A DNA stretch of 64,000 nt, taken from Acetonema longum DSM 6540. GTDB lineage: Bacteria > Bacillota > Negativicutes > Sporomusales > Acetonemataceae. The stretch is taken from positions 1-64,000 of the forward strand of contig NZ_AFGF01000144.1 in assembly GCF_000219125.1 (NCBI RefSeq). The letters run 5' to 3'. Numbering within the stretch: the first letter of the stretch is position 1; each line of letters begins with the position of its first letter. The position numbers were made by a program, and so were the translations under genes. Under the pieces are notes generated by a model. That model saw nothing but the letters and a program-made list of their open reading frames with translations, had not been told where the DNA came from and ran no database searches. Below are positions 13,505 through 40,809 of the stretch, piece by piece.

Positions 13505-13599
13505 CCGGCGATTTCCGCCCGTTGCAACTCAGGGAAAAGGCAGGGATCCTACAGTAGAAAAATTAATGCACAAAAAAATCAAAAAATTCTAAAAAGATA

Positions 13600-13673
13600 T
13601 TGACGACTTTATAAAATCTGCCGTACAATTGATGTATATATGTATATACATCAATTGTAGTTATGTATATACA
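13600..13673 (+). promoter_or_regulatory. Promoter and 36-bp palindromic operator of the methyltransferase operon
   Basis: TTGACG at 13600-13605 and TACAAT at 13624-13629 are 18 bases apart. A perfect inverted repeat with 17-base arms around a central TG covers 13624-13659, overlapping the -10. Its core, TGTATATATGTATATACA (13633-13650), is identical to the site in front of GntR-1 at 2202. A further half site, TATGTATATACA, follows at about 13662. Strong candidate for repression by GntR-1. Confidence 0.75.
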
Positions 13674-13691
13674 ATTTGGGGGTGATGAGAT

Positions 13692-14492: not shown

Positions 14493-14535
14493 ACACGAAA
14501 CCGTTGAAAAAGGCCCATCTGCGAGGAGAAAAGCT

Positions 14536-17093: not shown

Positions 17094-17130
17094 GTTCTCC
17101 CCGGAAAGTAAGCGAGAGGAGGCTGGTTCT

Positions 17131-19273: not shown

Positions 19274-19344
19274 TGGACTTTCACCTCCAGAATTTCTAGA
19301 ATCTCAAAAGAATCATTCTCATTTCTCCATACGCGGCGACTGGT

Positions 19345-22255: not shown

Positions 22256-22383
22256 CACTGCATTCCACCTTTGCACAAATATCAGCTTGATTAAAATGGT
22301 AATGCCATATTTTATTTTTGTCAAATTCGGATAATTCAAAAAAATCAGCATTTATACAGACCGTGTCAAAGAAGGGACAATAA

Positions 22384-23498: not shown

Positions 23499-23811
23499 AT
23501 TTTCACCTCTAAGTTTTCGCAATAAAATAGCGAATATTCGGATTTTAAACACTTAATGAGTTGTTTTTGGTCAATTGATGGAACTAAAACACCAATGACA
23601 ATACCTTGCGTCAGCAATAGCTGAAATCTTTCCGGAATGAAACAACTTTATTATATAATAAACGAGCTATAATAATCAATATAATTGGGATAGTTCCTTC
23701 ATAAAAGGAGTTATGACAAATAGACTCAATATTTAAAAATTTTTAAAAAATACTCATATTTATTATTGAAATTATCTAAAAGATGAATTACAATATCACC
23801 ATAAAACGCAC

Positions 23812-23841: not shown

Positions 23842-23902
23842 CAACAAGTAAAGCGGGAAATGGTTTATTTCCTTCGGGAAACTGAAAGAGAGGAGCTTGC
23901 AG

Positions 23903-25417
23903 ATGGCAGTAAAGCGACTGAGGTATTGTGTCAATGGAGAATGGAGGGAATCAGCTACAAAGAAATACATGCCGGTTACCAACTCCAGTACCGGCAAGAT
24001 TATTGCAGAAGCGCCCTGTTGTACCGTTAACGAAGTAAATGAGGCGGTTGCCGCGGCCAAAGCGGCGTTTCCCGTCTGGTCCAATACTCCGGTGACGGCC
24101 AGAGTTCAGCTTATGTTCAGGTATAAATCTATTTTGGATTTATATTTGGAAGAACTGACCGTGCTTGTGGCCACTGAATTGGGAAAAAACCTGAGTGAGG
24201 CCCGCGGCGATGTTCTGAAAGCGATTGAAGTGGTGGAGCTTGCGTGTGCAACGCCGACTTTGCTGCAAGGCGATTCGCTGATGAATGTTTCCGAAGGCCA
24301 TGACACAGTGCTGTACAGGGAGCCGATCGGCGTATTTGCCGGTATCGTACCTTACAATTTTCCGGCGATGATCCCTTTTGGCTGGATGATTCCGCTCTGC
24401 ATCACGACAGGCAATACGTTTGTGCTGAAAGCCGCCAGCGCCGTGCCTCAGACCGCCATAAGAATGCTGGAGCTTTTGATAGAGGCGGGATTGCCGGCGG
24501 GAGTTGTCAACCTGCTTACCTGCAGCCGTCAGGAAGCGGAAAGTTTATTGAAACATCCGGATGTCGCAGGTATTTCTTATGTCGGTTCTACCTCGGTGGG
24601 GCTGCATATTTATTCGACCGCGGCGACTCATGGCAAGCGGGTTCAGGCATTGTGCGAAGCCAAAAACCACGGCTTGGTGCTTAAAGATGCTTCGCTGGAA
24701 TTGGCGACCGGCAGAGTCATTAATTCCGGCTTCGGCTGCGCGGGCCAGCGTTGCATGGCTTTGCCGGTTGTCTGCGTGGAAGAGGAAGTGGCGGATGCAT
24801 TTGTTGATCATCTGGTTACATTCGCTAAAAGACTCAGAGTCGGGCCCGGTTATGATCAGGCTACCGATTTGGGGCCTGTCGTGTCGGCGGAACATAAACA
24901 AAGCGTCCTGAATTGGATTGCCAAAGGGATTGAAGAAGGGGCAAAACTCATTTTGGACGGCAGGGATATTGCCGTCACAGGCTATGAGGGAGGTTTTTAC
25001 CTCGGCCCGACAATTTTTGATCATGTTAAACCGGAAATGAGTATTGGTACCAGTGAGATTTTCGGGCCTGTGGTGTGTATCAAGCGGGTAAAGGATTTTG
25101 AACATGGCCTGGCGGTAATGAATGGGAACCCCTTCGCCAACGGGTCCTGCATTTTCACGCAGAACGGTTATTATGCCAGAGAGTTTGCCAAAAGAACTCA
25201 CGGCGGCATGGTTGGTATCAACGTAGGCATTCCCGTTCCTTTATCTGTATTCCCTTTTTCGGGGCATAAACAATCATTTTTTGGCGATCTGCACTGCATG
25301 GGCAAGGACGGCGTGGCCTTCTTCACGGAAGCTAAGTGTGTGACCAGCCGCTGGTTTGACGAAGACGCAAAACATACCAAGGTGGATACCTGGGAAGGAA
25401 CAATGACGCGCAAATAA
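23903..25417 (+). CDS. iolA: Methylmalonate/malonate-semialdehyde dehydrogenase (CoA-acylating)
   Basis: A 504-residue aldehyde dehydrogenase of the MmsA branch. Key segments are YNFPAMIPFGWMIP, the KNHG motif and the catalytic cysteine in FGCAGQRCMA (about Cys284). It converts malonate semialdehyde, the end product of inositol breakdown, to acetyl-CoA and CO2 with NAD and CoA. ATG 23903 has AGGAG 7 bases upstream. First gene of the inositol operon. Confidence 0.9.
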   Translation: MAVKRLRYCVNGEWRESATKKYMPVTNSSTGKIIAEAPCCTVNEVNEAVAAAKAAFPVWSNTPVTARVQLMFRYKSILDLYLEELTVLVATELGKNLSEARGDVLKAIEVVELACATPTLLQGDSLMNVSEGHDTVLYREPIGVFAGIVPYNFPAMIPFGWMIPLCITTGNTFVLKAASAVPQTAIRMLELLIEAGLPAGVVNLLTCSRQEAESLLKHPDVAGISYVGSTSVGLHIYSTAATHGKRVQALCEAKNHGLVLKDASLELATGRVINSGFGCAGQRCMALPVVCVEEEVADAFVDHLVTFAKRLRVGPGYDQATDLGPVVSAEHKQSVLNWIAKGIEEGAKLILDGRDIAVTGYEGGFYLGPTIFDHVKPEMSIGTSEIFGPVVCIKRVKDFEHGLAVMNGNPFANGSCIFTQNGYYAREFAKRTHGGMVGINVGIPVPLSVFPFSGHKQSFFGDLHCMGKDGVAFFTEAKCVTSRWFDEDAKHTKVDTWEGTMTRK

Positions 25418-25475: not shown

Positions 25476-26324
25476 GTGCCATTAGTTACACTGAGGGAAA
25501 TTTTACAGAAAACAGATCAGTCCGATTATGGAGTGGGGTCTTTTAATGTCGTGAGTATGGAAATGGTCATGGGGGTGATCAGAGCCGCGGAAGAGACGTT
25601 TTCACCGATTATCCTGCAGACGGCGGAAGCGAGGCTGAAGCATTCGCCGCTGAATCTAATCGGCCCGCTGATGGTCGAGGCCGCCTGCAAGGCGAAAGTG
25701 CCGGTAGCCGTACATTTAGATCATGGTTCACAGCTGGAAATCATAAAACAGGCCTTGGAGATAGGGTTTACCTCCGTAATGTTTGACGGCTCACGGTTAC
25801 CGCTTGCGGTGAATATTACTAAAACTCTGGAAGTTGCCCGTCTGGCGCAAGGGTATGGAGCATCGGTGGAAGCGGAAATTGGCCGGGTTGGCGGCAGTGA
25901 GGACGGAGCAGAGGATATTGAAATGGCCATCACTCAGGTGCAGGACGCCCAAACCTTCTTCGAGCATACTGGCGTGGATGCCCTGGCGGTGGCTATCGGC
26001 AATGTTCACGGAGTATATAAAAGGGAACCCAATCTGCAGTTTGCCAGGCTGAAAGACATCCATGCAGCAGTGGCGGCTCCCTTGGTTCTGCACGGTGGCT
26101 CCGGCATCACTGCTCAGGATTTTCGACAGTGCATCCAGCATGGCATAAAGAAAATCAATGTACAGACCGCCACCTTGCATAAGGTAGTGGCGAAAGTGCG
26201 CTCATTGTTTCAGCAAACGGAAAATCCGGATTATTTTACTTACCATGAGTGTGTGATTGCCGCCGCGCATGAAAGCGCCAAAGATCATATGGAAGCATTT
26301 CAAAGTGTGAATCAAGCTTGGTAG
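25476..26324 (+). CDS. iolJ: Class II aldolase, 6-phospho-5-dehydro-2-deoxygluconate aldolase
   Basis: A 282-residue class II (zinc) aldolase. Metal-binding histidines are in VHLDHGS and in VLHGGSGIT; EAEIGRVGGSED and ALAVAIGNVHGVYK are the usual sugar-bisphosphate aldolase blocks. Sequence alone fits any FbaA/GatY relative, but placement between iolA and iolC identifies the IolJ role: cleavage of the phosphorylated keto-acid to DHAP and malonate semialdehyde. GTG start with AGAGGGGA upstream. Confidence 0.85.
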   Translation: MPLVTLREILQKTDQSDYGVGSFNVVSMEMVMGVIRAAEETFSPIILQTAEARLKHSPLNLIGPLMVEAACKAKVPVAVHLDHGSQLEIIKQALEIGFTSVMFDGSRLPLAVNITKTLEVARLAQGYGASVEAEIGRVGGSEDGAEDIEMAITQVQDAQTFFEHTGVDALAVAIGNVHGVYKREPNLQFARLKDIHAAVAAPLVLHGGSGITAQDFRQCIQHGIKKINVQTATLHKVVAKVRSLFQQTENPDYFTYHECVIAAAHESAKDHMEAFQSVNQAW

Positions 26325-26335
26325 GAGGCTGGGGC

Positions 26336-27355
26336 ATGACTGGAATACAATTTGATGGCACAAAACATATGGATATTATTCCCATTGGGAGAGTGGCCAT
26401 AGATTTTAACCCTGTAGATCTCAATAAACCGTTGGACGAAAGTACGACTTTCCGCAAATACCTTGGCGGATCACCCGCCAATATCGCTGTCGGCATGGCT
26501 CGGCTGGGCAAGAAAGTGGGGTTTATCTCTAAGGTTTCTGATGACCAGTTTGGCCGGTTTGTTATCAATTATTTCAAAAAAGAGGGTATCGACACTTCCC
26601 ATATCGCCGTGGCGAAGAACGGCGAGTCGCTGGGACTTACTTTTACGGAAATTCTAAGCCCCACCGCCAGCAGTATCCTGATGTACCGTAACGGTGTGGC
26701 TGATTTGGCATTATCGCCGGAAGAGGTCAATGAAGATTACATTAAGAATGCCAAGGCGATTATTATTTCCGGCACTGCGCTGGCGGCGAGCCCTTCGCGG
26801 GAAGCCGCTCTCTTGGCGATGGAATATGCCAAAAAACATGGGACGGCAGTCATATTTGATATTGATTATCGGAGCTACACCTGGCAGTCGAAAGCGGAGC
26901 TGGTGATCTATTACTCCGCCATAGCCCGGGCCAGCGATATTATTCTGGGATCAAGAGAAGAGTACAATTTGATGGAAAGTGTCGTGGCGCCGGCAGGAAG
27001 CAGCGATCAGGAGACGGCTGCCCGCTGGCTGGCCTGCGACAATAAAATTGTTGTCATTAAACACGGCAAAGAAGGCTCTGCCGCCTATACCGGCAGCGGC
27101 GGCGTATATAAGATCAAACCTTTTCCGGTAAAACTGCTGAAATCTTTCGGCGGCGGCGATGCATACGCCTCTGCTTTTCTCTACGGGTTAATGGAAGGCT
27201 GGGAGATCGTCGATTGCCTTGAGTTTGGCAGCGCCTCGGCGGCCCTGCTGGTGGCGAGCCACAGCTGTTCCGATGCGATGCCGGGTGTTGACGAGATACG
27301 GGAATTTATTAAGAAAGCTAAAGAAGAATACGGTGAAATGGTAGTCAGAGCATAA
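26336..27355 (+). CDS. iolC: 5-dehydro-2-deoxygluconokinase
   Basis: A 339-residue PfkB-family sugar kinase. It starts with the IPIGRVAIDFNP strand, has the YLGGSPANIAVGMARLGKK motif near residue 45 and the C-terminal catalytic FGGGDAYASAFLYGL (general-base Asp). IolC signature spacing (VDLNKPLDES) is visible. It phosphorylates 5-dehydro-2-deoxygluconate for IolJ. ATG 26336 is used because TAGGAGG precedes it; an upstream TTG overlapping iolJ lacks a ribosome site. Confidence 0.9.
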   Translation: MTGIQFDGTKHMDIIPIGRVAIDFNPVDLNKPLDESTTFRKYLGGSPANIAVGMARLGKKVGFISKVSDDQFGRFVINYFKKEGIDTSHIAVAKNGESLGLTFTEILSPTASSILMYRNGVADLALSPEEVNEDYIKNAKAIIISGTALAASPSREAALLAMEYAKKHGTAVIFDIDYRSYTWQSKAELVIYYSAIARASDIILGSREEYNLMESVVAPAGSSDQETAARWLACDNKIVVIKHGKEGSAAYTGSGGVYKIKPFPVKLLKSFGGGDAYASAFLYGLMEGWEIVDCLEFGSASAALLVASHSCSDAMPGVDEIREFIKKAKEEYGEMVVRA

Positions 27356-27375: not shown

Positions 27376-28182
27376 ATGTTGAGGATCAGGCAGGCTGAGC
27401 CGTTTCAATATGGCTATAATCCGGTCACGGCTATGGATGAAACGGAAGACAACACCATGATGGATTTTGGCATACTGAGGATCGCGAAAAATCAGAAGGA
27501 GTCTCTGGTTGAAGAAGATAAAGAAATTGCCTTGCTTTTAATTCAGGGTGAGGTTTCCCTAAAGTGGGACGGCCGGGAGAAAACCATTGCCAGAGGCAAC
27601 TGCTTTGATGCCATGCCATGGGTGCTGCATGTGCCGAAAAATACAGCGGTAGAGATCGCTGGAATCGCGGCTGATTCTGAGCTTAGCATTACCAAAACGA
27701 CCAATGACAGGCTTTTTGCAGCTAAAATGTACGCTCCGGCTGAATGTCGCTCAGAGGAACGCGGCAAAGGGACATTAAAAGAAGCGTCAACACGCATTGT
27801 ACGAACGATATTGGATTATTCCGACGCGTCTTATTCCAACCTGGTGATTGGCGAAGTGATCGATTTTCCGGGAAAATGGTCCAGCTACCCGCCTCATTAT
27901 CACCCGCAGCCGGAGATCTATTTTTACAAGTTCTGTCCCGAGCAGGGGTATGGGTTCTGCGAACTGGGCGAGGATATCGTAAAAATCCGGCACAATGATA
28001 CGGTGAAAATACTGAATAATGCGACTCATCCGCAAACGACAGCGCCGGGATATGCCATGTATTATATCTGGGTCATCCGGCATATTGACGGCAATCCGTA
28101 TAAAAGCCCGGAATATCCGGTATTTGAGCCGCAACATCTGTGGGTTAACGACAAAAATTCCAAAATATGGCCGGACAAATAG
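27376..28182 (+). CDS. iolB: 5-deoxy-glucuronate isomerase
   Basis: A 268-residue two-cupin protein of the IolB family. The second cupin carries the metal-binding pattern [18 protein letters not shown] with a further Glu and His downstream ([18 protein letters not shown]). It isomerises 5-deoxy-glucuronate to 5-dehydro-2-deoxygluconate. ATG with GGGAGG upstream; lies 20 bases after iolC. Confidence 0.9.
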
Positions 28183-28202
28183 TTGACCGGGAGGAATGGG
28201 GT

Positions 28203-30065
28203 ATGGAGACGATGCGGCTTACCATGGGCCAGGCGCTGCTTAAGTTCCTTGACAACCAATATGTGGAGTTTGATGGTGTTGTCAACAAGTTTGTGAAGGG
28301 CGTATTTACCCTTTTTGGGCACGGCATTGTAGTGGGTTTTGGCGAAGCTTTGGAGCGGTATCAGGGCGATATGGCCGTATATCAAGGAAAGAATGAGCAG
28401 GGCATGGCCCATGCGGCCATCGGTTACGCTAAACAAAAAAACCGGCGGGAGATTATTGCCTGTACTTCGTCTATTGGTCCGGGAGCCCTTAATATGGTGA
28501 CTGCTGCAGCCACGGCCACTGTCAACCGGATTCCCCTGCTGCTGCTGCCGGGAGATACTTTTGCCTGCCGGCAGCCTGATCCGGTACTGCAGCAGGTGGA
28601 AAATCCGTCCAGCCTGTCCATTACCGCCAATGATGCGTTTAAGCCGGTATCCAGATACTGGGACAGGGTGGTGCGGCCCGAGCAGTTGATGACGGCGATG
28701 ATCCATGCCATGCGGGTTTTGACCGATCCGGCGGATACCGGCGCCGTTGCCATATGTTTGCCGCAGGATGCGGAAGGCGAAGCCTATGATTATCCTGTTG
28801 AGTTCTTTGCCAGGCGGGTTCATCACATTGCCAGAAGGATACCTACCCGCAGCGAGCTTGAACACGCCGTCGCTAAAACGATAACCAAGAAAAAACCCCT
28901 CCTGATTTGCGGCGGCGGTGTCGTATATTCGGAGGCTGGCGATGCACTCATCGAGTTTGCGGAAAAGTTTAGGATCCCTTTTTGCGAAACACAGGCCGGC
29001 AAGGGAGCCGCACCCTGGAATCACGGCCTGAATCTTGGAGGTGTCGGAGTTACCGGCGGGCTGGCGGCAAACAGGGTCGCCGCCGCAGCGGATCTCGTCA
29101 TTGCAGTGGGGACCAGGCTTTCAGATTTTACAACAGCATCCAAATGGTTGTTCCAAAACCCGGACGTAGACTTCCTGACGATTAATGTAAATGCTTTTGA
29201 CGCCTGTAAAATGAACGCCATGACGGTTATCGCCGATGCCAGGGAGGGATTGCAGGCATTTGGCGCTGCGCTTGAAGCAGCGGGGTATCAATCCGTCTAT
29301 AGCGGAGAAATTGAAACGGCCAAGGCGGAATGGGACAGGGAAGTTGACCGGCTTTGCAGTATCGACCTGGCGCAGGGCTTATCCCAGACCAGGGCTTTAG
29401 GCGAAATCGCCAAAATGATCGGCGAAGATGCCGTTATTGTGGGATCGGCAGGCAGTTTGCCAGGCGATTTACAACGTTTATGGCGACCGGTAAAGCCTAA
29501 AACCTATCACATGGAATACGGTTTTTCCTGTATGGGTTATGAGATCAATGCCGCGCTGGGGGTGAAAATGGCCGAGCCGCAGCGGGAAGTGTATGCGATG
29601 GCTGGCGACGGCAGTTATCTGATGCTTCATTCCGAGCTGCTCACCAGCATTCAGGAAGGCTATAAAATTAATGTGCTCCTGTTTGACAATTGCGGCTTTG
29701 GCTGTATCGAAAACCTGCAGAATTCTAAAGGAATTCCCTCGTTTTGCACTCAGACCAAATTTCGCGACCCGGCCACCGGCCGGTTAACAGGCCGGGATAT
29801 GCCGGTCAGCTACGCGGAATGCGCCGGAGGGTATGGCGCTAAGACCTATACGGCCAGAACCATAGAAGAATTGAAAGCGTCGCTGGCCAGCGCCAAAAAG
29901 GACACGGTGTCAACGCTCATTGATATAAAGGTCCTGCCCGGGACAATGACCGACGGTTACGAGTCATGGTGGCGGGTCGGCGTACCCGAAGTGTCGGAGA
30001 ATCCCGATGTGGTGAAAGCCCATGAACTGCTTGTGAAGGAAGTTAGCAAGACAAAAAAATTTTAA
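28203..30065 (+). CDS. iolD: Trihydroxycyclohexane-1,2-dione hydrolase (ThDP-dependent)
   Basis: A 620-residue thiamine-diphosphate enzyme of the IolD group. It shows the N-terminal [13 protein letters not shown] (catalytic Glu near the ThDP aminopyrimidine), [17 protein letters not shown], and the C-terminal ThDP/Mg motif [21 protein letters not shown]. It opens the cyclohexane ring of the trione/diketo intermediate to give 5-deoxy-glucuronate, the committed ring-cleaving step. ATG 28203 with GGGAGG upstream; an earlier in-frame start lies within iolB. Confidence 0.92.
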
Positions 30066-30083: not shown

Positions 30084-30980
30084 ATGTTTGATAAAAGCAA
30101 AGTGCTTCTAGGCATTGCCCCCATCGCCTGGACCAATGATGACATGCCTGAACTGGGGCGAGAAAACACTTTCGAGCAATGTGTGAGCGAAATGGCCCTG
30201 GCCGGGTTCAGCGGCAGCGAAGTCGGCAATAAGTACCCAAAAAATCCCAAAGTGTTAAAACAGGCATTGGATTTGCGCGGCATACGCATTGCCAGCGCGT
30301 GGTTCAGTTCCTTTCTGACCACCAGACCTTTCGAAGAAACTGCCGCCCCCTTCCTAAAGCACCGTGACTTCCTGCACGAAATGGGCGCCAAGGTGATCGT
30401 TGTCGCCGAACAGGGCCACAGTATCCAGGGAAGGATTGATACCCCGGTGTTGGAGCGCAAGCCTCAGTTTACGGCGGCGGAGTGGGAAAGCCTGGCCCGG
30501 GGGCTGGAAAAACTGGGAAAACTGGGGCAAGAGAAAGACATGCACATCGTCTATCACCATCACATGGGTACGGGCGTGCAAACGGCGGCCGAAATTGATC
30601 AGCTGATGATGATGACGGGTGAAAAGCTGGTATATCTGCTGTTTGACACCGGCCACCTGGCTTTTTCCGGCGAGAACCCGCAGCAGGTTCTGAAAAAATA
30701 CGTCAAACGTGTCAAACATGTACATTTAAAAGATGTCCGCCAAGATATCCTGGTTAAAGTGGCCAGCGAAAAAATGAGCTTCCTGCAGGCGGTCAAAGCG
30801 GGTGTCTTTACTGTGCCGGGCGATGGGATGATCGATTATGAGCCGCTGTTCGCAGAGTTTGCCAGTAACAATTACGAAGGATGGTTTGTGGTTGAAGCCG
30901 AACAGGACCCGGCGCTGGCAAATCCGCTTGAATATGCCGTCAAGGCAAGAAAATATATCAGAGAAAAGGCAGGTCTATAA
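30084..30980 (+). CDS. iolE: myo-Inosose-2 dehydratase
   Basis: A 298-residue xylose-isomerase-like TIM barrel with IolE landmarks: [17 protein letters not shown] at the start, [41 protein letters not shown] and VPGDGMIDY (metal-binding Glu/Asp/His set). It dehydrates 2-keto-myo-inositol to the trihydroxycyclohexanedione for IolD. Lies 18 bases after iolD. Confidence 0.92.
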
Positions 30981-30993
30981 GGGGGCTGGAGAG

Positions 30994-32003
30994 ATGGAAA
31001 AGAAGATCCAGGTAGGCGTAATTGGCGCAGGAAGAATTGGCAGACTTCATACCAAAAACATTATGGAGAGTTTTCCCAACGTTACAGTAAAAGCCGTGGC
31101 GGACATTTATGCCGATCCAGTCAAAGACTGGGCGGCAGGTCTCAACATTCAGCATGTGTACAGCGACTATCAACAGATTCTCGATGATCCGGAGATTGAT
31201 GCGGTACTCATTTGCTCCTCAACCGATACTCATTCCCGGATCACCATCGAAGCCGCCCGGGCCGGCAAGCATATATTCTGCGAAAAACCCATTGACTTTG
31301 ACATTGGCCGGATTCACGCGGCCCTTGAGGCAGTGAAAAAGGCCGGGGTTAAATTTCAGGTCGGCTTTAACCGGCGGTTTGACCATAACTTTAAAAAGGT
31401 CAGAGAACTGATTCAGAGCGGAGCGATTGGCGACCTGCAAATTGTTCATGTTATCTCGCGCGATCCTGCGCCTCCCCCGGCTGAGTATATCAAAGTGTCC
31501 GGCGGCATGTTCCTCGATATGACCATCCATGACTTTGACATGGTGCGATATCTGACCGGCAGCGAAGTGACCGAAGTATACGCCAATGCCGCCGTACTTG
31601 TCGACAAGTCAATCGGCGAAGCCGGCGATGTGGATACCGCGCTGGTCAGCTTAAAGTTCAAAAACGGCGCCATCGGCATGATTGATAATTGCCGTCAGGC
31701 CGTATACGGCTACGACCAGCGGGTAGAGGTCCTGGGGGCCAAGGGCAGCATTGCCGCAGCCAATGATACCCCGACTACTGTTGTAATGAGCACGGACAGT
31801 GCGGTGACGGCAGACAAACCCAAGTTTTTTTCCTGGAAAGATACATGGAATCCTTCGCAGCCGAGATGAAAGAATTCTTCAACAGCATCATCCATGATAC
31901 CGACACGGCAGTAACCGGCATTGACGGCTTAAAACCGGTACTCATTGGTTTGGCGGCAAACCGGTCTTACCGGGAAGGCCGGCCGGTAAAACTGGAGGAG
32001 TAG
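30994..32003 (+). pseudogene. iolG: myo-Inositol 2-dehydrogenase, interrupted by a one-base frameshift
   Basis: The frame from ATG 30994 encodes a GFO/IDH/MocA dehydrogenase: VGVIGAGRIGRLHTKNI (NAD fold), FCEKPIDF (catalytic Lys), FNRRFDHNF, and MFLDMTIHDFDMVRY (catalytic Asp/His). It breaks at a run of seven Ts (31815-31821): as written it stops at 31869 after WNPSQPR. With one extra T, the reading continues FFFLERYMESFAAEMKEF and then GIDGLKPVLIGLAA to a stop at 32001-32003, giving a normal IolG of 336 residues. Either a homopolymer sequencing error, transcriptional slippage or a real mutation. Its product would oxidise inositol to 2-keto-inositol with NAD. Confidence 0.88.
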
Positions 32004-32046
32004 ATTGCGTGCTGCAAGTCCGTAGAAGCTTAAAGGAGGAGAGAAA

Positions 32047-33351
32047 GTGTTTGAACAACTGAATTTTCGCCTGAATTTTAATGATGCGGATTACTCGGAT
32101 TTACATTTTCCCAGCGAGGATAAGAATATCCTGAGAGAACTCGGGAAACAGGTGGCGGAAATAGCGGCCAGACCTGTCATGGAAGAAAGAAAGCAGCTAT
32201 GGCTCAAACATAATAAGCTGGAAAAAACCAGGCCGGTTCTCTTGTGCGATCCTGAAAACGGTTGGAATGAATTGATCCCGGAAAGTCAAATCCGGTGTAA
32301 AAACAGTATTGCCCGGCATTGGGAGGACCATTTGCGCAAGCAGATTTTCTGGGGCAACGAAATGAATGACGATTATGTGGTGGAAGCCTTATTCAACCTC
32401 CCTTATATATATGAGGAAAAATCCTGGGGGGTGGCCGGCAGCACCAAGAAGGCAAGCCAAAAGAAAACGGCGGAAGAGGGGAAAGCGTATCATATTGAGA
32501 CCATTCTGGAAGATTTCAGCCAAATCAAAGATATTACCAAACCCCAGTTAACGATCCATTATCAAACAACCGAAAGCTTATTGGCAACAGCGCAGGAACT
32601 TTTTGACGGTTCCCTTAACTGCAGAATCAATACGGTGTGGTTCTGGTCGTTTGGTCTCACCGATGAGCTGGTATTTTTAAGAGGACTGGAAAAACTCATG
32701 TATGATTTTTGCGATGAGCCGGAACACATTCACGCAGTGATGAAAATATTGTTTCAAGGTATGCAGGATAAGCTGGATTTCCTGGAAACCAATCACCTGC
32801 TCTGTCTGAATAATGACGGCACTTATGTCGGTTCGGGCGGCATGGGTTTTATTGATACGCTGCCGGCAAAAGATTTTGCGGGAACAGTGCGAACGAAAGA
32901 TATGTGGGGACTGGCTGAAAGTCAGGTTACGGTCGGCGTTTCGCCGGGCATGTTTAAAGAATTTATTTTTCCCTATCAGAAACCCCTCATGGAGAGGTTT
33001 GGGCTTACTTGCTATGGCTGCTGCGAGCCCATGGATGCCAGGTTTGATATCGTAAAAGCAGCAGCAAATTTAAGAAGAGTTTCGGTGTCGCCCTGGGCCA
33101 ATAAAGAGATTATGGCCGCCAAGCTGAAACATGATTATATTTATTCGCTTAAGCCTTCTCCCTCCAATTTGGCGCTGCCGGTAATGGATGAAGCGGTAGC
33201 CAGAAAAGAACTGAAAGAGGCGCTAAAAATAGCCGGGGAATATGATAACTGCCTGGAGATCATCATGAAAGACAATCACACTCTGGGCAATAATCCGGAA
33301 AATATTAAAAACTGGGTGAAAATAGCCCGGGAAGAAATTGAATCATTTTAA
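32047..33351 (+). CDS. UroD-like methyltransferase, candidate O-methylinositol demethylase (MT I)
   Basis: A 434-residue protein of a longer UroD-superfamily branch common in O-demethylase clusters. The core has VSPGMFKEFIFPYQKPLMERFG and CYGCCEPMDARFD, whose cysteines are probable zinc ligands, and a C-terminal block ending MKDNHTLGNNPENI. GTG start with GGAGGAG upstream, 43 bases after iolG. It is followed by a corrinoid protein and a MeTr-type methyltransferase, the MT I / corrinoid / MT II order of the Moorella MtvB-MtvC-MtvA system. The inositol setting suggests a methylated cyclitol as methyl donor; that is inference. Confidence 0.75.
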   Translation: MFEQLNFRLNFNDADYSDLHFPSEDKNILRELGKQVAEIAARPVMEERKQLWLKHNKLEKTRPVLLCDPENGWNELIPESQIRCKNSIARHWEDHLRKQIFWGNEMNDDYVVEALFNLPYIYEEKSWGVAGSTKKASQKKTAEEGKAYHIETILEDFSQIKDITKPQLTIHYQTTESLLATAQELFDGSLNCRINTVWFWSFGLTDELVFLRGLEKLMYDFCDEPEHIHAVMKILFQGMQDKLDFLETNHLLCLNNDGTYVGSGGMGFIDTLPAKDFAGTVRTKDMWGLAESQVTVGVSPGMFKEFIFPYQKPLMERFGLTCYGCCEPMDARFDIVKAAANLRRVSVSPWANKEIMAAKLKHDYIYSLKPSPSNLALPVMDEAVARKELKEALKIAGEYDNCLEIIMKDNHTLGNNPENIKNWVKIAREEIESF

Positions 33352-33383
33352 AACTGCTTGTGATATTGGAAGGAGGGTATTTC

Positions 33384-34028
33384 ATGGATATCATCAGTCA
33401 GCTGGCGGATAGTGTACAGAATGGGAAAATTAAACTGGTGAAAGAACAGGTAGAGCAGGCTCTTGCCCAGGCAATCAGCCCGGCTGTGATATTGAATGAC
33501 GGCATGATTGCCGCCATGACGGTAGTCGGGACAAAATTCAAAAACAATGAAATTTATGTGCCGGAAATGCTGATCGCTGCCAGAGCAATGGGGGAAGGAT
33601 TAAAGGTGCTGGAGCCGGTTTTGATTGCCAGCGGGGTAAAGCCCGTCGGCAAAGCCGTGATCGGCACGGTCAAAGGGGATTTGCACGATATCGGGAAAAA
33701 TCTGGTGAGAATGATGATGCAAGGCGCAGGGATCGAAATGCATGATATTGGCATCGATACGCCTGCGGCGGACTTCCTTGCCAAAGCGCAGGAAGTCCAA
33801 GCCGATTTTGTATGCCTTTCGGCCTTGTTAACCACTACTATGGCCGAAATGGAGGCAGTGATAAAAGAATTTCAGCAAGCAGGTGTACGGAAGGATTTTG
33901 TTTTCATGATCGGCGGGGCGCCTGTTACCGAAGATTTTGCCCAGAAAATCGGGGCTGATTTTTATGCGCCGGATGCTGTTCATGCGGCTGACGTTGCCCG
34001 CGATGTACTGCATAAAAAATACGCCTGA
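33384..34028 (+). CDS. Methyl-carrier corrinoid protein of the inositol locus
   Basis: A 214-residue corrinoid protein. After a four-helix cap (residues 1-85) comes VKGDLHDIGKN, His101 being the lower axial ligand, then IGIDTPAADF and FMIGGAPV. ATG 33384 with AAGGAGGG upstream. It would take the methyl group from the UroD-like protein and pass it to the MeTr-type protein at 34215. Two hairpins separate it from that gene. Confidence 0.92.
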   Translation: MDIISQLADSVQNGKIKLVKEQVEQALAQAISPAVILNDGMIAAMTVVGTKFKNNEIYVPEMLIAARAMGEGLKVLEPVLIASGVKPVGKAVIGTVKGDLHDIGKNLVRMMMQGAGIEMHDIGIDTPAADFLAKAQEVQADFVCLSALLTTTMAEMEAVIKEFQQAGVRKDFVFMIGGAPVTEDFAQKIGADFYAPDAVHAADVARDVLHKKYA

Positions 34029-34048: not shown

Positions 34049-34139
34049 GGCGGCTTTTGCCGCCAAATCTTTCTTAAAGCGAGATCAATGATGCGGGCTC
34101 ATGCTTCAGGTGAGGGGGAGACGGGCTAGCTCCTCCTCA
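34049..34139 (+). other. Two hairpins between corrinoid and MT II genes
   Basis: GGCGGC-TTTT-GCCGCC at 34049-34064, followed by AAATCTTTCTT, is a compact possible attenuator. A second stem pairs TGAGGGGGAG (34111-34120) with CTCCTCCTCA (34130-34139), one G-T pair. They may set relative amounts of the two proteins or protect the upstream message. Confidence 0.5.
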
Positions 34140-34214
34140 TCCGGGGACAGTGTCTGCAATGTGTTGTATTAGTGGCTCATGTATCTCGCAGATATGAAAA
34201 AGGGGCGAAGAGCA

Positions 34215-35015
34215 TTGATAATCGTAGGCGAATTAATTAATACCAGCCGCAAGGCTGTCAGCGAAGCAGTAGATAACAGGGATGCACGATACATTCAACA
34301 GGTTGCCGGGGAACAGGCGGCAGCAGGGGCGAACTATATTGACGTCAATTGCGGCAACAAGGTATCTAATGAAGTGGAAATCATGGAATGGCTGGTGAAT
34401 ACCATTCAGGCAGCGGTTGAAGTTCCCCTGTGCATCGACAGCCCCAATCCGGCAGCGCTGGACATCGGTCTTAAGCTGGCCAAATACGGAACGCCGATGA
34501 TCAATTCCATAACGGATGAAGCGGAACGGTTTAATGCCGTTATACCGCTGGTGCAAAAGTATGAGGCTAAAATAGTGGCTCTGTGCATGGGCGACGGCCG
34601 TATGCCGGAGACCGCAGCGGAGCGCATGCTGGTGGTGCAAAGCCTGTATGACAAACTTACTTCAGCCGGCGTTAGGGACGAAGACATTTATTTTGACCCG
34701 TTAGTCAAACCGGTGAGCAGCGTGGGTACAGCCGGTCTGGAAGTGCTGGAAACGATCCGGCTGATTAAGGCGCAGTATCCCAAAGTGCATTTTATGTGCG
34801 GCCTGAGCAATATTTCCTTCGGCTTGCCCAACCGCAAATATTTGAATCGGTTGTTCGTATCCCAGACTATGGCTATGGGGATGGACGGCTATATTCTCAA
34901 TCCGACAGACAAGGGCATCATGAATGTTGTCTATGCATCTAAAGCGCTTTTAGGAATCGATGAATATTGCCTGGAATATTTAGCAGCCTACCGTCAGGGA
35001 ATTTACGAACAGTAA
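34215..35015 (+). CDS. MeTr-type methyltransferase of the inositol locus (MT II)
   Basis: A 266-residue pterin-binding TIM barrel, the same length as the paralogue at 13692 and sharing VGELINTSRKAV, NYIDVNCGN, LCIDSPN, INSITDEAE, DIYFDPLVKPVSS and CGLSNISFGLPNR. It would move the methyl group from the corrinoid protein to tetrahydrofolate. TTG 34215 is chosen because AGGGG sits 9 bases upstream and the product begins just like the paralogue; an ATG further up adds 12 unrelated residues. Confidence 0.9.
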   Translation: MIIVGELINTSRKAVSEAVDNRDARYIQQVAGEQAAAGANYIDVNCGNKVSNEVEIMEWLVNTIQAAVEVPLCIDSPNPAALDIGLKLAKYGTPMINSITDEAERFNAVIPLVQKYEAKIVALCMGDGRMPETAAERMLVVQSLYDKLTSAGVRDEDIYFDPLVKPVSSVGTAGLEVLETIRLIKAQYPKVHFMCGLSNISFGLPNRKYLNRLFVSQTMAMGMDGYILNPTDKGIMNVVYASKALLGIDEYCLEYLAAYRQGIYEQ

Positions 35016-35136
35016 GCACCTGTAAAGCATAGCGTATTCATTATTAAATTTTAAGAAAATTCTTTCAACCGAAGGTGCGCCCGATCTTTCACAAGTGTGT
35101 ATTCTTCGAAATTAAAAAGAGAGAAGGCGATTGATT

Positions 35137-36546
35137 ATGAGTAACCAAGGAAACCAAACAGTGTTTTTAAGTACAATTGTCCTAATTTCGACATTCGGAG
35201 GACTCCTATTCGGGTATGACACCGGCGTCATTAACGGCGCTTTGTCTACGATGACTATAGCATTAGGGTTAAACGCCTATACTGAGGGAATCGTCGTAAG
35301 CTCCCTGTTGATTGGCGCTGCTATCGGCTCTGTGTCCGGCGGCCGACTTTCGGATGCCGTGGGCCGCCGCAGAACCATTCTTTATCTTGCTGTCCTGTTC
35401 TTTTTCGCCGCCCTTGGCTGTGCCGCTGCCGCGAGCATTCCTTTCATGGTGGCATGCCGTTTCCTGCTTGGTTTGGCGGTTGGCGGGTCGGCGGTAACGG
35501 TACCGGCCTTTTTGGCGGAAATGGCGCCGGCAGAGCGGCGGGGGCAGTTGGTTACCAGGAACGAGCTGATGATTGTTACCGGGCAGCTGCTGGCTTTTGT
35601 CATTAACGCCATTATCGGTGTTACCATGAGCGGCAGTGGGCAGGTTTGGCGGTATATGCTGTCCATTGCGGCGCTGCCAGCCATTATCCTCTTCTTTGGT
35701 ATGCTGAAAGTACCGGAAAGCCCGCGCTGGCTGTTGGTCAAAGGCAGAGATCAAGAGGCGCTGCAGGTCCTGCGGCAAATTCGTGAGGAGCAGCAGGCAA
35801 AAACAGAACTCAGTGAAATCCAGGCAACTTTGGCCGAAGAAGCCGGGGTTAAAAAGGCAACGTTAAAGGACTTGGCCGTACCGTGGGTGCGCCGCATCGT
35901 CCTTATCGGAATCGGACTTAGCGTAGTCCAGCAAGTTACCGGTGTTAACTCAGTGATGTATTATGGCACGGAAATCCTCAAAAATGCCGGCTTTTCAATG
36001 GAAGCGGCCCTTATTGGCAACACGGCCAATGGCGTTATCTCGGTTTTGGCAGTATTGGTCGGCATGTGGCTGCTTGGCAAGGTCGGCAGGCGCCCGCTGC
36101 TTTTGGCCGGGTTACTTGGAACCACGTCGTCCCATCTGCTCATTGGGATATCCTCCCAGATTCTTGCCGGGTCTGCCGCGCTGCCCTATGTAGTGCTGGC
36201 GCTGACAGTCACATTTCTGGCTTTTATGCAGGGAACGCTTGGCCCGGTAGTATGGTTGATGCTGGCGGAAATATTCCCGCTTAGAATACGGGGACTTTGT
36301 ATGGGCATCTGTGTATTTTGCCTCTGGATCACTAACTTCTTCATCGGCTTATTTTTCCCGGTATTTCTCACTACGGTTGGTTTGTCTTCAACATTTTTCA
36401 TCTTTGCCGCATTAGGGTTTGCGTCCATAGTATTTGTGAAGATTTGCGTGCCGGAAACAAAGGGGTTCACCCTTGAACAATTGGAGCATAATTTCCGGAA
36501 CTATGGAGATTCCGCGATTCAAAAGGCTCGCACGAAACCAATGTAA
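35137..36546 (+). CDS. MFS sugar/inositol transporter
   Basis: A 469-residue, 12-helix sugar porter. Typical motifs: GLLFGYDTGVINGAL in helix 1, GRLSDAVGRRRT, PESPRWLLVKGR, QQVTGVNSVMYYG and a C-terminal PETKGFTLEQLE. The family includes Bacillus IolT. ATG 35137 is preferred over TTG 35131 for the GAGAAGG spacing. Located within the inositol locus just after the O-demethylase genes, it most likely imports inositol or a methylated inositol. Confidence 0.88.
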   Translation: MSNQGNQTVFLSTIVLISTFGGLLFGYDTGVINGALSTMTIALGLNAYTEGIVVSSLLIGAAIGSVSGGRLSDAVGRRRTILYLAVLFFFAALGCAAAASIPFMVACRFLLGLAVGGSAVTVPAFLAEMAPAERRGQLVTRNELMIVTGQLLAFVINAIIGVTMSGSGQVWRYMLSIAALPAIILFFGMLKVPESPRWLLVKGRDQEALQVLRQIREEQQAKTELSEIQATLAEEAGVKKATLKDLAVPWVRRIVLIGIGLSVVQQVTGVNSVMYYGTEILKNAGFSMEAALIGNTANGVISVLAVLVGMWLLGKVGRRPLLLAGLLGTTSSHLLIGISSQILAGSAALPYVVLALTVTFLAFMQGTLGPVVWLMLAEIFPLRIRGLCMGICVFCLWITNFFIGLFFPVFLTTVGLSSTFFIFAALGFASIVFVKICVPETKGFTLEQLEHNFRNYGDSAIQKARTKPM

Positions 36547-36591: not shown

Positions 36592-37380
36592 ATGGAAAAA
36601 TTACTGACAGGAAAATTATGTGTTGTAACCGGGGCGGCCCGGGGGATGGGAAGATCTCTGGCGATAAAATACGCTGAACATGGGGCTAATGTAGCACTTA
36701 TAGATTTAAATAAAGAAGGGCTGGAAATGGCCGCAAAAGAAGTTGAAGCAAAGGGAGTGCAGGCATTGCCTCTGGTAATGGATGTGGCAGCGGCCCAGGA
36801 AATTGACAGCGCAATCCGCGCAATTGAGTCAAAGTTTATAAAAATTGATGTTCTGGCAAACTGCGCCGGTATTTCCACCTCCCGGTTGCTGGTAGATGTC
36901 GAGGAAGCAGAATGGGATAAGGTTCTCAATATTAATTTAAAAGCTGTTTATCTCTTAAGCAGGCGTGCAGCCCGGAATATGATCCAAAATAAAGTACAAA
37001 ACGGTAAAATCGTATCCATTTCGTCACAGGCCTCAAAGATCGGCGAGTTTGGGAACGGAGTCTATTGCATTTCTAAAGCGGGCTTGAACATGCTGACACA
37101 AATACTGGGGCTGGAATTAGCGGAATATGGGATTGCTGTGACTGCGGTTTGTCCCGGCTATGTAAATACGGAAATGGTACAACAGGTTTTCCGGAAAAGA
37201 GGTCCGCTTGAAGGAATGACGCCTGAAGAATATGAAAAAACGTTAACCAATACGGTACCGATGAAAAGGATGGCAGAGCCTGAAGAAATTGCAGATCTCA
37301 TGGTGTATTTAAGCAGCGGGAAAGCCAATTATATCACCGGAGTATCCGTGACAATTGCCGGCGGCAGAACATTAATCTAG
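36592..37380 (+). CDS. SDR-family cyclitol/sugar dehydrogenase
   Basis: A 262-residue short-chain dehydrogenase: VTGAARGMGRSLA nucleotide loop, LANCAGIS, catalytic ISSQASK...YCISKAG (Ser, Tyr-x-x-x-Lys) and VCPGYVNTEMV. The C-terminal ITGVSVTIAGGRTLI ends the substrate pocket. Position after the transporter and before three isomerase-like genes suggests oxidation of an inositol isomer. The exact substrate is not readable. It could partly replace IolG if that gene is truly broken. Confidence 0.82.
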   Translation: MEKLLTGKLCVVTGAARGMGRSLAIKYAEHGANVALIDLNKEGLEMAAKEVEAKGVQALPLVMDVAAAQEIDSAIRAIESKFIKIDVLANCAGISTSRLLVDVEEAEWDKVLNINLKAVYLLSRRAARNMIQNKVQNGKIVSISSQASKIGEFGNGVYCISKAGLNMLTQILGLELAEYGIAVTAVCPGYVNTEMVQQVFRKRGPLEGMTPEEYEKTLTNTVPMKRMAEPEEIADLMVYLSSGKANYITGVSVTIAGGRTLI

Positions 37381-37397
37381 GATGGTAAGGAGTGCTC

Positions 37398-38342
37398 ATG
37401 ATGAGACTTTGTTTTGTTACGGATGGTTTGGGATATATGCCCTTTGAAGAGATGCTGGATACGGCCGCAATTTTGGGCTTTGAATCTTTAGAACTGGCCT
37501 GTGGCAATTGGTCTAAGGCGCCGCATGTCGATCTAAATGGACTGCTTGAGAGTGGGCGCAGCAGAGAGAAATTTGTAAAAGAAATAAAAAGCAGAGGACT
37601 TGAAATTGAGGCCCTAAACTGTTCCGGTAATCAACTGGCGCCAAATGAAGAAGGTAAAGCGCATCAAGAGATAGTAGAAAAAACATTTCGGCTGGCAGAG
37701 CTTTTAGGAATAAAAACTATTGTAATGATGTCCGGACTTCCCGGCGGCAGTCCGACGGACATAACTCCTAACTGGATTATAACAAGCTGGCCTCCTATTA
37801 CTACCAAAATTCTAAATTGGCAATGGAATGAAGTAGCATTTCCCTACTGGCAGAAGACAGTAAAACTTGCCCAAGAACGTGGTATTGAAAAAATTGCTTT
37901 GGAAAACCACGGGTGCCAGTTAGTTTATAATCCGGAAACTTTGTTTACATTAAGAAACCATGTTGGCGCAACCATTGGCATGAATCTGGACCCCAGCCAT
38001 TTATTATGGATGGGCGGGGACCCGATAGCAGCTTTACGATTTTTGGGAGATGCAGTGTATCACATTCATGCCAAAGATGTACGGATTGAAAACGGATTGA
38101 TTGACAAAAACGGCGTGCTTGACACAAAAGCCATCGAATGTTTTTCCCAGCGTTCCTGGAATTATGTAGCACTGGGGCATGGGCGCGACCTGCGGTGGTG
38201 GAAGGAACTCTTCTCGGTTGCCAGCATGATAGGCTATAAAGGCCCTGTAAGCCTGGAGATGGAAGACCTGACCATGGACCCGCTGACCGGAGTTAAGAAA
38301 TCTATGAAAGTATTAAAGGAAGCTCTGCCCAGAGATCTATAG
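37398..38342 (+). CDS. Sugar phosphate isomerase/epimerase-like TIM barrel
   Basis: A 314-residue xylose-isomerase-like protein. Metal-site segments are ALENHGCQ (Glu), LDPSHLLWMG (Asp/His), YHIHAKDVR (His) and VSLEMEDL (Glu). ATG 37398 follows AAGGAG by 5 bases; an ATG one codon later is equally possible. It starts 17 bases after the SDR gene and precedes two further barrels, suggesting that keto-inositols are interconverted here. Which isomer it handles is unknown. Confidence 0.8.
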   Translation: MMRLCFVTDGLGYMPFEEMLDTAAILGFESLELACGNWSKAPHVDLNGLLESGRSREKFVKEIKSRGLEIEALNCSGNQLAPNEEGKAHQEIVEKTFRLAELLGIKTIVMMSGLPGGSPTDITPNWIITSWPPITTKILNWQWNEVAFPYWQKTVKLAQERGIEKIALENHGCQLVYNPETLFTLRNHVGATIGMNLDPSHLLWMGGDPIAALRFLGDAVYHIHAKDVRIENGLIDKNGVLDTKAIECFSQRSWNYVALGHGRDLRWWKELFSVASMIGYKGPVSLEMEDLTMDPLTGVKKSMKVLKEALPRDL

Positions 38343-38404
38343 CATAATTAGAGGACTAAAAACCATTCCATGCTAGAATTTTAGCAAGGGAGTTGATTTT
38401 TTCC

Positions 38405-39184
38405 ATGAAGAAATCAGTATGTATTGAGACAATTTTTACTGAAGCTCCTTTGGCAGAAAGATTTGCATTAGTAAAGGAAGCGGGCTTTGACTATGTTGAG
38501 TTTTGGACCTGGAAGGATAAGGATATCACCACGATAAAAGAGCTATGCCTGCAATATAGTCTCAAGGTAGCCAGTTTTTCCGGTGATCAGGATTATTCTC
38601 TAATCAACCCGGATGAAAGTGAAAAATATATATCCTTTGTCAAGGAATCGATAAAAACGGCCCAATATTTAAACTGCAAAAACCTGGTGATCCACTCGAA
38701 TGCGCTGGGAGAGGGCGGTGTGGTTTTAAACGGTTATCCTGAAATACCTGATTCTAAAAAATTTGCAACAATCTTTAAGGTGCTGAAGGACTTAGCTCCT
38801 ATAGCGGAAAGGGAAAAAGTCACACTGGTGTTAGAGGCGCTGAATTCAAAGCTCGATCATGCCGGTAATTTTTTAAATAATACCATAGATCCGGCCAGTC
38901 TTATAAAATTAGTAAACTCACCGTACATAAAGGTATTATACGACGTATATCATATGCAGATCATGGAAGGCAATATTATTGATACATTAAAGAGATACCT
39001 TGATGTTATTGGCTATATTCATATAGCGGATGTGCCGGGCAGACATGAACCAGGTACCGGGGAAATTAATTATGTAAATGTAATGGATGCACTAAAAGCG
39101 CTAAAATATGATAAAGTAGCAGGCTATGAATTGTTTCCTTTAAAAAGCTCCAAGGAAGCGATTAACGCTATAAAGAGCCTTTAG
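38405..39184 (+). CDS. Hydroxypyruvate isomerase-like TIM barrel
   Basis: A 259-residue protein with the IADVPGRHEPGTGEINY motif of the hydroxypyruvate isomerase group, plus VLEALNSK, LYDVYHMQIMEGN and GYELFPLK for metal binding. ATG 38405 is used; AAGGGAG lies 12 bases away and a TTG between them sits too close to it. In this locus it may isomerise a keto-cyclitol or a ring-cleavage by-product instead of hydroxypyruvate. Confidence 0.8.
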   Translation: MKKSVCIETIFTEAPLAERFALVKEAGFDYVEFWTWKDKDITTIKELCLQYSLKVASFSGDQDYSLINPDESEKYISFVKESIKTAQYLNCKNLVIHSNALGEGGVVLNGYPEIPDSKKFATIFKVLKDLAPIAEREKVTLVLEALNSKLDHAGNFLNNTIDPASLIKLVNSPYIKVLYDVYHMQIMEGNIIDTLKRYLDVIGYIHIADVPGRHEPGTGEINYVNVMDALKALKYDKVAGYELFPLKSSKEAINAIKSL

Positions 39185-39257: not shown

Positions 39258-40094
39258 ATGAAAATTTGCTTTAACCAGGCAACGACAATGAAAAAATCAA
39301 CCTTGGAAAAAGATTTGGAACTATGCGAGAAATATGGCTATGACCTGATTGAAATCCGGCTGGATCAATTAGAAAACTATCTCAAAAGGCATACTGTTGA
39401 TGAACTGGCGGCATTTTTCCACAAAAGCAAGATTAAGCCCTATGCTTTTAATGCCTTGGAATTTATCACCTTCCGTGATGCTGCGGGCTATCAGGAGATT
39501 AAAAAAAATCTCAGATTCCTCTGTGAAACCGGGGAAAAGATTCATTGCAAGAAGATCGTAGTCGTTCCCACCTTTGACGTAGGAAATTATACGAAAGACC
39601 GGATTAAAGAAGAATCCATGAGAGCCCTCAACGATTTGGCCGATTTTGCGGAACAATATGGCGTAAAACTGGCTTATGAATTTGTGGGCTATCCCAATTG
39701 CTCGGTAAATACCTTTGGTCAGACTTATGATATTATTAAAACGTTAAACCGGGACAGTGTCGGCATGGTTCTGGATTGTTTCCATTTTCATGCGATGGGT
39801 TCCAAAATCGAAGATCTGCAACAAGCTGATGGCCAAAAAATCTTCATTTTCCATATTGATGATGCCGAAGATTTACCTGTCGGCGCCTTGCGTGACAGCA
39901 ACAGGCTGTGGCCGGGCGAGGGAGCAGTTGATTTAAATGCCGTTCTGGGTACACTCAAAAAAATTGGCTACAGTGAAATGGTTTCGGTTGAATTGTTCCG
40001 GCCGGAGTATTGGGATTGGGATATTGAGCAAACGATTAAAGTGGGAAAAGAGAAAACGGAATCAGTTGTCGGCAAGTATTTTGCTATCGGATAA
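39258..40094 (+). CDS. iolI: Inosose isomerase (2-keto-myo-inositol isomerase)
   Basis: A 278-residue TIM barrel, the same length as Bacillus IolI and strongly similar by eye: MKICFNQATTMKKSTLEKDL, AYEFVGYPNCSVNTFGQ, LDCFHFHAMGS, IFHIDDAEDLPVG, RLWPGEGAVDL and SVELFRPEYWDWDIE. IolI interconverts 2-keto-myo-inositol and 1-keto-D-chiro-inositol, letting chiro-inositol enter the pathway. That is the isomer released from pinitol, which supports the methylinositol reading of the locus. ATG with GGGGGAG upstream. Confidence 0.92.
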   Translation: MKICFNQATTMKKSTLEKDLELCEKYGYDLIEIRLDQLENYLKRHTVDELAAFFHKSKIKPYAFNALEFITFRDAAGYQEIKKNLRFLCETGEKIHCKKIVVVPTFDVGNYTKDRIKEESMRALNDLADFAEQYGVKLAYEFVGYPNCSVNTFGQTYDIIKTLNRDSVGMVLDCFHFHAMGSKIEDLQQADGQKIFIFHIDDAEDLPVGALRDSNRLWPGEGAVDLNAVLGTLKKIGYSEMVSVELFRPEYWDWDIEQTIKVGKEKTESVVGKYFAIG

Positions 40095-40110
40095 CAAATT
40101 GGCGAGTAAT

Positions 40111-40809
40111 TTGCTGAGAGTCAAATTGATCGGCTGCCCTTCCACGCAAAAAGAAGTAGAGTCTCTGGGGTTAACCGGCGGGATGGATTGTGAGTATCTG
40201 GATTTTTCCTATCATGCCGCCCCGGATCAATTACAGAAAGAGCTGCAGAAAAAGATCGACAACAGCCAGGACTACAGCGCGATTGTTCTGACCTATGGCC
40301 GGTGTTCCAAAGCAACCGCCGGCCTGGTGTCGCCTAAGGCGCCGATCGTCTTGCCGCGGGTCCATGACTGCTTCGAACTGCTTTTAGGATGCGGCGAGAA
40401 GCGGCGAATGCTGGCTGACAGAAATCCGGCGGCCTATTATTTTAGCGCGGGATGGCTGGATTATGGCCGGAGCCCTTATGCGGAGTACCGGGAATATGTA
40501 GAAAGGTATGGAGAAGAGGAAGCCCGCTATCTAATAGAAGCGCTTTATGGAAAATACTGCGAAGCTATCTTTGTCAAAACCTGTCTGCAGGAAGACACGG
40601 AAAAATACCGCGTAAAGCTTAAGGAAATCGCAGCATTCTTTTGCTGGGCAGTCGGCGAAGTGGAAGGCGACCTGTCATTATTGCGTGCGCTTGTTACCGG
40701 TACGCGCTTGCGGGATGACGTGATTCATATTCCTCCGGGGAAACCTGTATGCTGGGAGAGCTTAGATGAAAGACAGTGCACAGGGGAAGGAGGGGGAAGC
40801 AATGAATAG
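40111..40809 (+). CDS. DUF1638 protein, second copy
   Basis: A 232-residue DUF1638 member: LRVKLIGCPSTQKEV aligned with the start of the 16383 protein, LTYGRCSKAT, LPRVHDCFELLLGCGEKRR and YYFSAGWLDYGRSPYAEY. The TTG at 40111 is chosen because it aligns with the paralogue's first residue and GGCGAG precedes it; TTG 40099 is an alternative, and longer readings overlap iolI. It overlaps the activator gene by 8 bases. In both clusters DUF1638 and the activator are neighbours. Confidence 0.8.
   Translation: MLRVKLIGCPSTQKEVESLGLTGGMDCEYLDFSYHAAPDQLQKELQKKIDNSQDYSAIVLTYGRCSKATAGLVSPKAPIVLPRVHDCFELLLGCGEKRRMLADRNPAAYYFSAGWLDYGRSPYAEYREYVERYGEEEARYLIEALYGKYCEAIFVKTCLQEDTEKYRVKLKEIAAFFCWAVGEVEGDLSLLRALVTGTRLRDDVIHIPPGKPVCWESLDERQCTGEGGGSNE

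Follow-up and report, generated by a model that had tools for sequence, protein, structure and literature searches.

We found that a UroD-superfamily protein (hereafter MT I) encoded in a 64,000-nucleotide stretch of DNA from the acetogen Acetonema longum DSM 6540 (hereafter the window) is probably the substrate-binding methyltransferase of a corrinoid-dependent O-demethylase, with a methylated cyclitol as its substrate. The preliminary description of this DNA had cast MT I as the substrate-specificity protein of such a system, and this role gained support from the UroD fold, from an adjoining corrinoid protein, methyl-corrinoid:tetrahydrofolate methyltransferase (MeTr) and reductive activator of corrinoid proteins (RACo), and from two genomes, representing different families, that carry the gene within an inositol (iol) operon; the substrate class, methylated cyclitols, is what we infer. 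The features of the locus are collected in Table 1.

The MT I gene is an uninterrupted frame of 434 codons on the forward strand, and its GTG start, which follows a strong ribosome-binding site, occupies the position where close homologues have ATG (MFEQLNFR...). As stated in the preliminary description, the protein is longer than the UroD proteins encoded at 12365 and 18167 of the window (434 residues versus 379 and 368); this length is not unusual in the UroD superfamily, since CdmB has 429 residues. The CYGCCEP motif described at the same time was read at residues 322-328, within TCYGCCEPM (residues 321-329). In an alignment of 84 family members, Y323, C325, C326, E327, R343, P372, D409, E93, D109 and Q293 were invariant (84/84), and because Y323, C325, C326, E327 and D409 are identical throughout, with the core of the motif among them, the motif is not a chance occurrence.

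Searched alone, MT I matched no family in Pfam, PF01208 included, none in NCBIfam, and no PDB sequence significantly, and a 64-sequence profile of its relatives retrieved no family from Pfam, NCBIfam or PDB sequences. PF01208 was weakly matched by 33 of the 64 relatives (best 5e-5), and the MT I family profile matched other UroDs with 96% probability in a profile-profile comparison. An AlphaFold2 model from an alignment with 63 relatives (pLDDT 93.4, pTM 0.92) matched UroD with a Z of 18.9 over 290 residues, MtaA (4ay7) with a Z of 16.4 and cobalamin-independent methionine synthase with a Z of about 12; the CdmB structure 9rui was absent among the structural matches listed, an absence that carries no evidential weight. 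Because the fold decides membership, MT I was counted in the UroD superfamily although the protein itself misses the PF01208 cut-off, and the earlier assignment to the UroD family is borne out by the predicted fold together with the weak matches of the relatives and the profile-profile comparison. As modelled, MT I is a divergent branch of the superfamily. A scan of species genomes gave at least 583 confirmed relatives, and the family tree was built with 84 proteins from about 17 named phyla; the family is deep and uncharacterised, and the aligned members have Y-x-C-C-E and a C-terminal Asp throughout.

By the order of the barrel strands, Y323-G-C325 of MT I would correspond to the His-x-Cys zinc ligands of MtaA, and D409, which follows the last barrel strand, would stand where MtaA has a third Cys. 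MT I has the UroD fold and, by this strand mapping, the placement of the motif at the same strand ends in common with the MtaA/MtbA coenzyme M methyltransferases and the type 1 MGC Mlps (PMC10418091), but it carries Tyr, Cys-Cys-Glu and Asp where MtaA/MtbA have a His-Cys-Cys zinc site. No significant sequence similarity between MT I and MtaA was detected in the PDB-sequence search or in the profile comparison, in which the MT I family profile was compared with the single MtaA sequence. Assignment of MT I to the SCMT/Mlp proteins, for which the criteria are identity above 25% with a known SCMT plus a His-Cys-Cys site, was rejected, since MT I lacks significant similarity to MtaA and Tyr replaces the His. 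With Tyr323 in place of the canonical zinc His, MT I may have a different metal site or none. In UroD-superfamily O-methyltransferases, one or both Cys are replaced by carboxylates or non-ligands (Kountz and Balskus, PMC10418091), and zinc is not needed by CdmB or the Moorella O-demethylase (PMC13222342). The Cys-Cys-Glu cluster with the Asp fits a putative metal site, though the absence of His is unusual.

The relationship to aromatic O-demethylases was examined in a tree of 29 proteins that comprised the family, CdmB, MtaA, HemE and the neighbouring UroDs, without OdmB, VdmB, MtvB and MtoB; CdmB and MtaA were represented by only the segments shown in PDB alignments. The MT I family formed a clade of its own (100/100), CdmB grouped with the window UroDs at 12365 and 18167 (99/96), and a position of MT I inside the CdmB clade was ruled out by this separation. 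CdmB is placed beside MtvB, OdmB, VdmB and MtoB by its own paper (PMC13222342). The preliminary description had named placement among proven aromatic O-demethylases as the outcome that would speak against it, and no such placement was found with respect to CdmB, the representative of those enzymes in this tree. Judged by sequence against the CdmB branch, MT I is not an aromatic O-demethylase by descent. MT I and the CdmB/MtvB/OdmB/VdmB/MtoB branch, which comprises three-component systems of acetogens, are alike in the UroD fold and in a scheme that leads from an MT I by way of its corrinoid protein and MeTr to methyl-tetrahydrofolate, with RACo as activator, but the MT I family is a separate deep clade with no detectable pairwise similarity to that branch. 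Unlike that branch, which acts on methoxyaromatics, MT I has a Y-G-C-C-E/Asp site and lies in a sugar/inositol context with sugar-sensing regulators. MT I resembles the MT I of three-component O-demethylases while standing outside the tested CdmB branch, and it is a probable methyl-inositol MT I.

Table 1. Features of the MT I locus in the window (positions on the forward strand of the window).
Feature	Position	Strand	Basis or remark
DeoR-type regulator (iolR-like)	22740..23552	-	86% conserved in S. silvacetica
iolA-like CoA-acylating (methyl)malonate-semialdehyde dehydrogenase	23897..25417	+	sequence match
iolJ-like class II aldolase	25476..26324	+	sequence match
iolC	26318..27355	+	TIGR04382, 407.2 bits
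iolB (KduI/IolB)	27376..28182	+	sequence match
iolD	28167..30065	+	TIGR04377, 961.6 bits
iolE	30084..30980	+	TIGR04379, 428 bits
iolG, inositol 2-dehydrogenase	30994..32003	+	412.6 bits; frame breaks near 31824-31830
Shine-Dalgarno sequence AAAGGAGGA (aaaggagga)	32032..32040	+	direct read, 6 nt 5' of GTG
UroD-superfamily methyltransferase (MT I), 434 aa	32047..33351	+	GTG start, ORF, fold, trees
C322-Y-G-C-C-E-P328 codons, putative metal-site motif	33010..33030	+	would lie at MtaA H-x-C zinc ligands
Invariant D409 codon	33271..33273	+	at or beside MtaA third zinc ligand position (inferred mapping)
Corrinoid protein, B12-binding, MtgC/MtbC-like	33360..34028	+	starts 9 nt past MT I stop
Methyl-corrinoid:THF methyltransferase (MT II, MeTr)	34179..35015	+	PRK07535, 353 bits vs cut-off 259
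Sugar-porter MFS transporter, likely uptake	35131..36546	+	TIGR00879
SDR oxidoreductase	36592..37380	+	sequence match
Xylose-isomerase-like TIM barrel	37392..38342	+	sequence match
Xylose-isomerase-like TIM barrel, hydroxypyruvate-isomerase/sugar-epimerase type	38393..39184	+	sequence match
IolI inosose isomerase	39258..40094	+	full-length match to PDB 1i60, 336 bits
DUF1638 protein	39937..40809	+	true start probably after 40094
RACo, reductive activator of corrinoid proteins	40766..42616	+	sequence match

In the window, IolG, IolE, IolD and IolC all reached the NCBIfam equivalog cut-off and IolI was recognised by 1i60; by its gene content, the inositol operon 5' of MT I is complete. All genes from iolG through MT I, the corrinoid protein and MeTr to RACo are co-directional, and the corrinoid protein, MeTr and activator (33360, 34179 and 40766) are encoded together with MT I. 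The frame of iolG is broken at a poly-T run, with the final 58 residues in the next frame, and the two parts were 86% and 83% identical to the intact IolG of Sporomusa silvacetica; the break is either a sequencing error or a real shift. Because iolG really ends at 32003, MT I starts about 43 nt past it. The gap between the corrinoid and MeTr genes contains a GC-rich terminator-like hairpin (34049-34064), although such sites are no commoner than in shuffled sequences. Equivalents of IolA, B, C, D, E, G, I and J from the myo/chiro-inositol pathway of Bacillus subtilis (iolABCDEFGHIJ) are present, and the window differs by the inserted demethylase cassette that separates iolG from iolI, through which methylated inositols probably join the substrates. 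Further methyltransferase systems are found at 12365-17739 (UroD, MeTr, RACo, DUF1638 and CobW) and 18167-19968 (UroD and corrinoid protein), their UroDs being the two that group with CdmB. The stretch 20290-22351, which encodes a GntR regulator, DUF2284 and, at 21024-21704, a weak corrinoid-binding-like protein, is possibly a third, unusual B12-related unit.

S. silvacetica, from a different family of the same order (Sporomusales), has the gene order of the window (iolR-A-J-C-B-D-E-G-MT I-corrinoid-MeTr-MFS-IolI), RACo excepted. Since this order is kept at 77-91% identity between the block proteins, compared to 82% for RpoB, the iol-MT I block was probably transferred horizontally as a unit. 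MT I was present in 3 of 28 Sporomusales genomes, all among the 5 with IolD (Fisher p 0.003). In the third carrier (G003), the neighbourhood of the 81% MT I homologue includes a corrinoid protein and RACo, a LacI regulator, a sugar porter (63%) and what remains of an iolE; an AraC-type regulator that contains a PocR sensory domain (L100:8239-9162) adjoins MT I in this genome. MT I does not follow iolG in the iol clusters of G004 or of G003 contig C116. Because the window holds two further methyltransferase systems at 12-20 kb, some of the closeness of MT I to iol could be chance; S. silvacetica keeps only the iol-linked system of the window's three.

In the 84-protein tree, MT I of the window is one of 10 proteins in a subclade with 99% support, to which two further proteins are sister (92). 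The subclade has its own signature, mainly an MFxxxNxRVNxxxAD-type motif at the N-terminus together with N86 and D206. Corrinoid neighbours were found for 8 of these 12 proteins versus 4 of the remaining 72 (Fisher p 5e-6, the rows not being independent), and inositol genes for 6/12 versus 0/72 when G003 was counted (p 2e-6) or 5/12 versus 0/72 when it was not (p about 3e-5, hand calculation). Five loci have IolG next to MT I (the window, S. silvacetica, L026, L080 and L024); in four it scored above the cut-off and in S. silvacetica it was recognised by its 86% identity, while the best IolG-like neighbours of the 72 remaining members all stayed below the cut-off. The L026 locus combines MT I with an ABC importer, IolG (486 bits) and IolI (71%), and the binding protein of this importer is closest (49% identity) to B. 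halodurans BH2323 (PDB 4yo7), a structure that we take to have been solved with myo-inositol. IolC (417 bits) and IolG (376 bits) of L080 and IolG (362 bits) of L024 are all above the cut-off, and an importer with a related binding protein is directly 5' of MT I in L020. The LacI regulators that adjoin MT I in L010, L021, L023, L024, L061 and L080 are orthologous and carry a sugar-type sensor domain (Peripla_BP_4); a more distant one in L025 brings the number with LacI nearby to 7 of 12. Beyond LacI, the operons of L021 and L023 consist of methyltransferase machinery only, which suggests that the inducer, and hence the substrate, is sugar-like; no inositol genes were among the neighbours of L021, L023 and L025 in the sequence examined. 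The preliminary description had proposed a new methylcyclitol-specific subgroup. The subgroup stands as a monophyletic, well-supported group of 10 with its own signature, and in unrelated bacteria its members are again accompanied, in independent gene orders, by IolG-level genes, ABC importers of the inositol/ribose type and LacI regulators that sense sugars. Methylcyclitol specificity is likely, from gene context, for MT I of the window and may or may not extend to the subgroup as a whole, about half of which is without an inositol gene in the sequence examined. In L021 (11982-13346) and L080 (11916-13274), the operon that holds MT I, a corrinoid protein, RACo and CobW also encodes an MtaA-like UroD that is extended at its C-terminus (by a thioredoxin-like part in L021) and may be an unusual methyl acceptor enzyme.

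We weighed three other explanations of the locus. MT I could act on another methylated carbohydrate, such as a methyl glycoside, an O-methyl sugar or the rhizopine 3-O-methyl-scyllo-inosamine, in which case the inositol genes nearby would serve a related polyol. The varied sugar loci of the wider family (ABC sugar importers, sugar porters, a sugar kinase, Gfo/Idh and xylose-isomerase-type proteins) and the LacI sensor domains, which resemble types for several sugars, agree with this, but the complete myo-inositol pathway, or IolG/IolC at the family cut-off, in the window and nearest relatives makes it unlikely. That MT I is an aromatic (lignin-type) O-demethylase landed by the iol operon would accord with the growth of Sporomusa on vanillate and syringate via methyltransferase systems (PMC12003927) and with the two nearby UroDs of the CdmB clade; we consider it very improbable, given the 100/100 separation of the family from CdmB and from those same UroDs and the recurrence of sugar-sensing regulators, transporters and inositol genes in unrelated bacteria.

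It is also conceivable, if improbable, that MT I is not a methyltransferase but a metal-dependent UroD-fold enzyme acting on sugar/inositol carbon skeletons, the corrinoid genes serving another MT I. A corrinoid protein always beside the family's MT I was rejected as a rule, as most members occupy other sugar loci with no corrinoid gene adjoining, and in 3 of the 31 genomes checked the corrinoid-protein search, which also matches MetH, found only MetH. Against this, the corrinoid gene of the window follows MT I after 9 nt and the pairing recurs in 8/12 of the clade, a stand-alone corrinoid protein is encoded in 27 of the 31 wider-family genomes (such proteins being common in Bacillota anyway), and the L026 genome has a corrinoid-MeTr-RACo operon elsewhere. 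That operon (L130) lies at a contig end with no MT I in the stretch examined and may be a hub for MT I genes at other sites.

For the methylated cyclitol O-demethylase that we favour, methyl-inositol would be imported by the sugar porter and bound in the barrel of MT I, where a metal on the Cys-Cys-Glu/Asp cluster would polarise the ether oxygen. The methyl group would then be taken by Co(I) of the corrinoid protein and passed by MeTr to tetrahydrofolate and into the Wood-Ljungdahl pathway, with RACo reactivating corrinoid oxidised to Co(II). The freed inositol would enter the IolG-E-D-B-C-J-A pathway; were it chiro-inositol, released from pinitol or a similar ether, IolI would help to convert it to scyllo-inosose. 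For the conversion of chiro-inositol into scyllo-inosose, the combination of IolG and IolI has been reported (PMC8355322, PMC5504672), which makes a chiro-inositol ether such as pinitol an attractive guess for the substrate; IolI is common in iol operons, so its presence is no proof. Removal of the methyl ether from an inositol derivative ahead of the Iol pathway is also a feature of rhizobial moc (rhizopine) catabolism. The moc route depends on oxygen, unlike the route proposed for MT I, which would be anaerobic and corrinoid-dependent. Counting against this reading, the description of another Sporomusa, S. carbonis, reports no growth on inositol, with methylcyclitols not among the substrates tried there (PMC12003927).

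Some stand-alone corrinoid proteins of the wider-family genomes are encoded together with MeTr and/or RACo at another site in the genome, suggesting, speculatively, MT I spokes served by one corrinoid hub. Tentatively, and with more doubt than confidence, the family as a whole (583 loci or more, from about 17 phyla) may consist of corrinoid MT I proteins for the demethylation of methylated cyclitols and sugars, which would often work in trans with a single central set of corrinoid protein, MeTr and RACo. Plants are rich in pinitol, quebrachitol and other methylated inositols, which have been listed among compounds fermented in the rumen (PMC4392294), and the literature we found names no enzyme for the oxygen-free removal of their methyl groups. 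The locus described here offers a concrete and testable candidate that also exists in a strain available in culture, S. silvacetica DSM 10669. Overall, these results supply a function hypothesis for a large family missed by standard profiles; if it is true, corrinoid O-demethylation would extend from aromatics to carbohydrates, both the methyl group and the inositol ring of plant methyl-inositols would be usable without oxygen, and, should it hold for the whole family, anaerobic carbohydrate O-demethylation would be a widespread, unrecognised C1 route.
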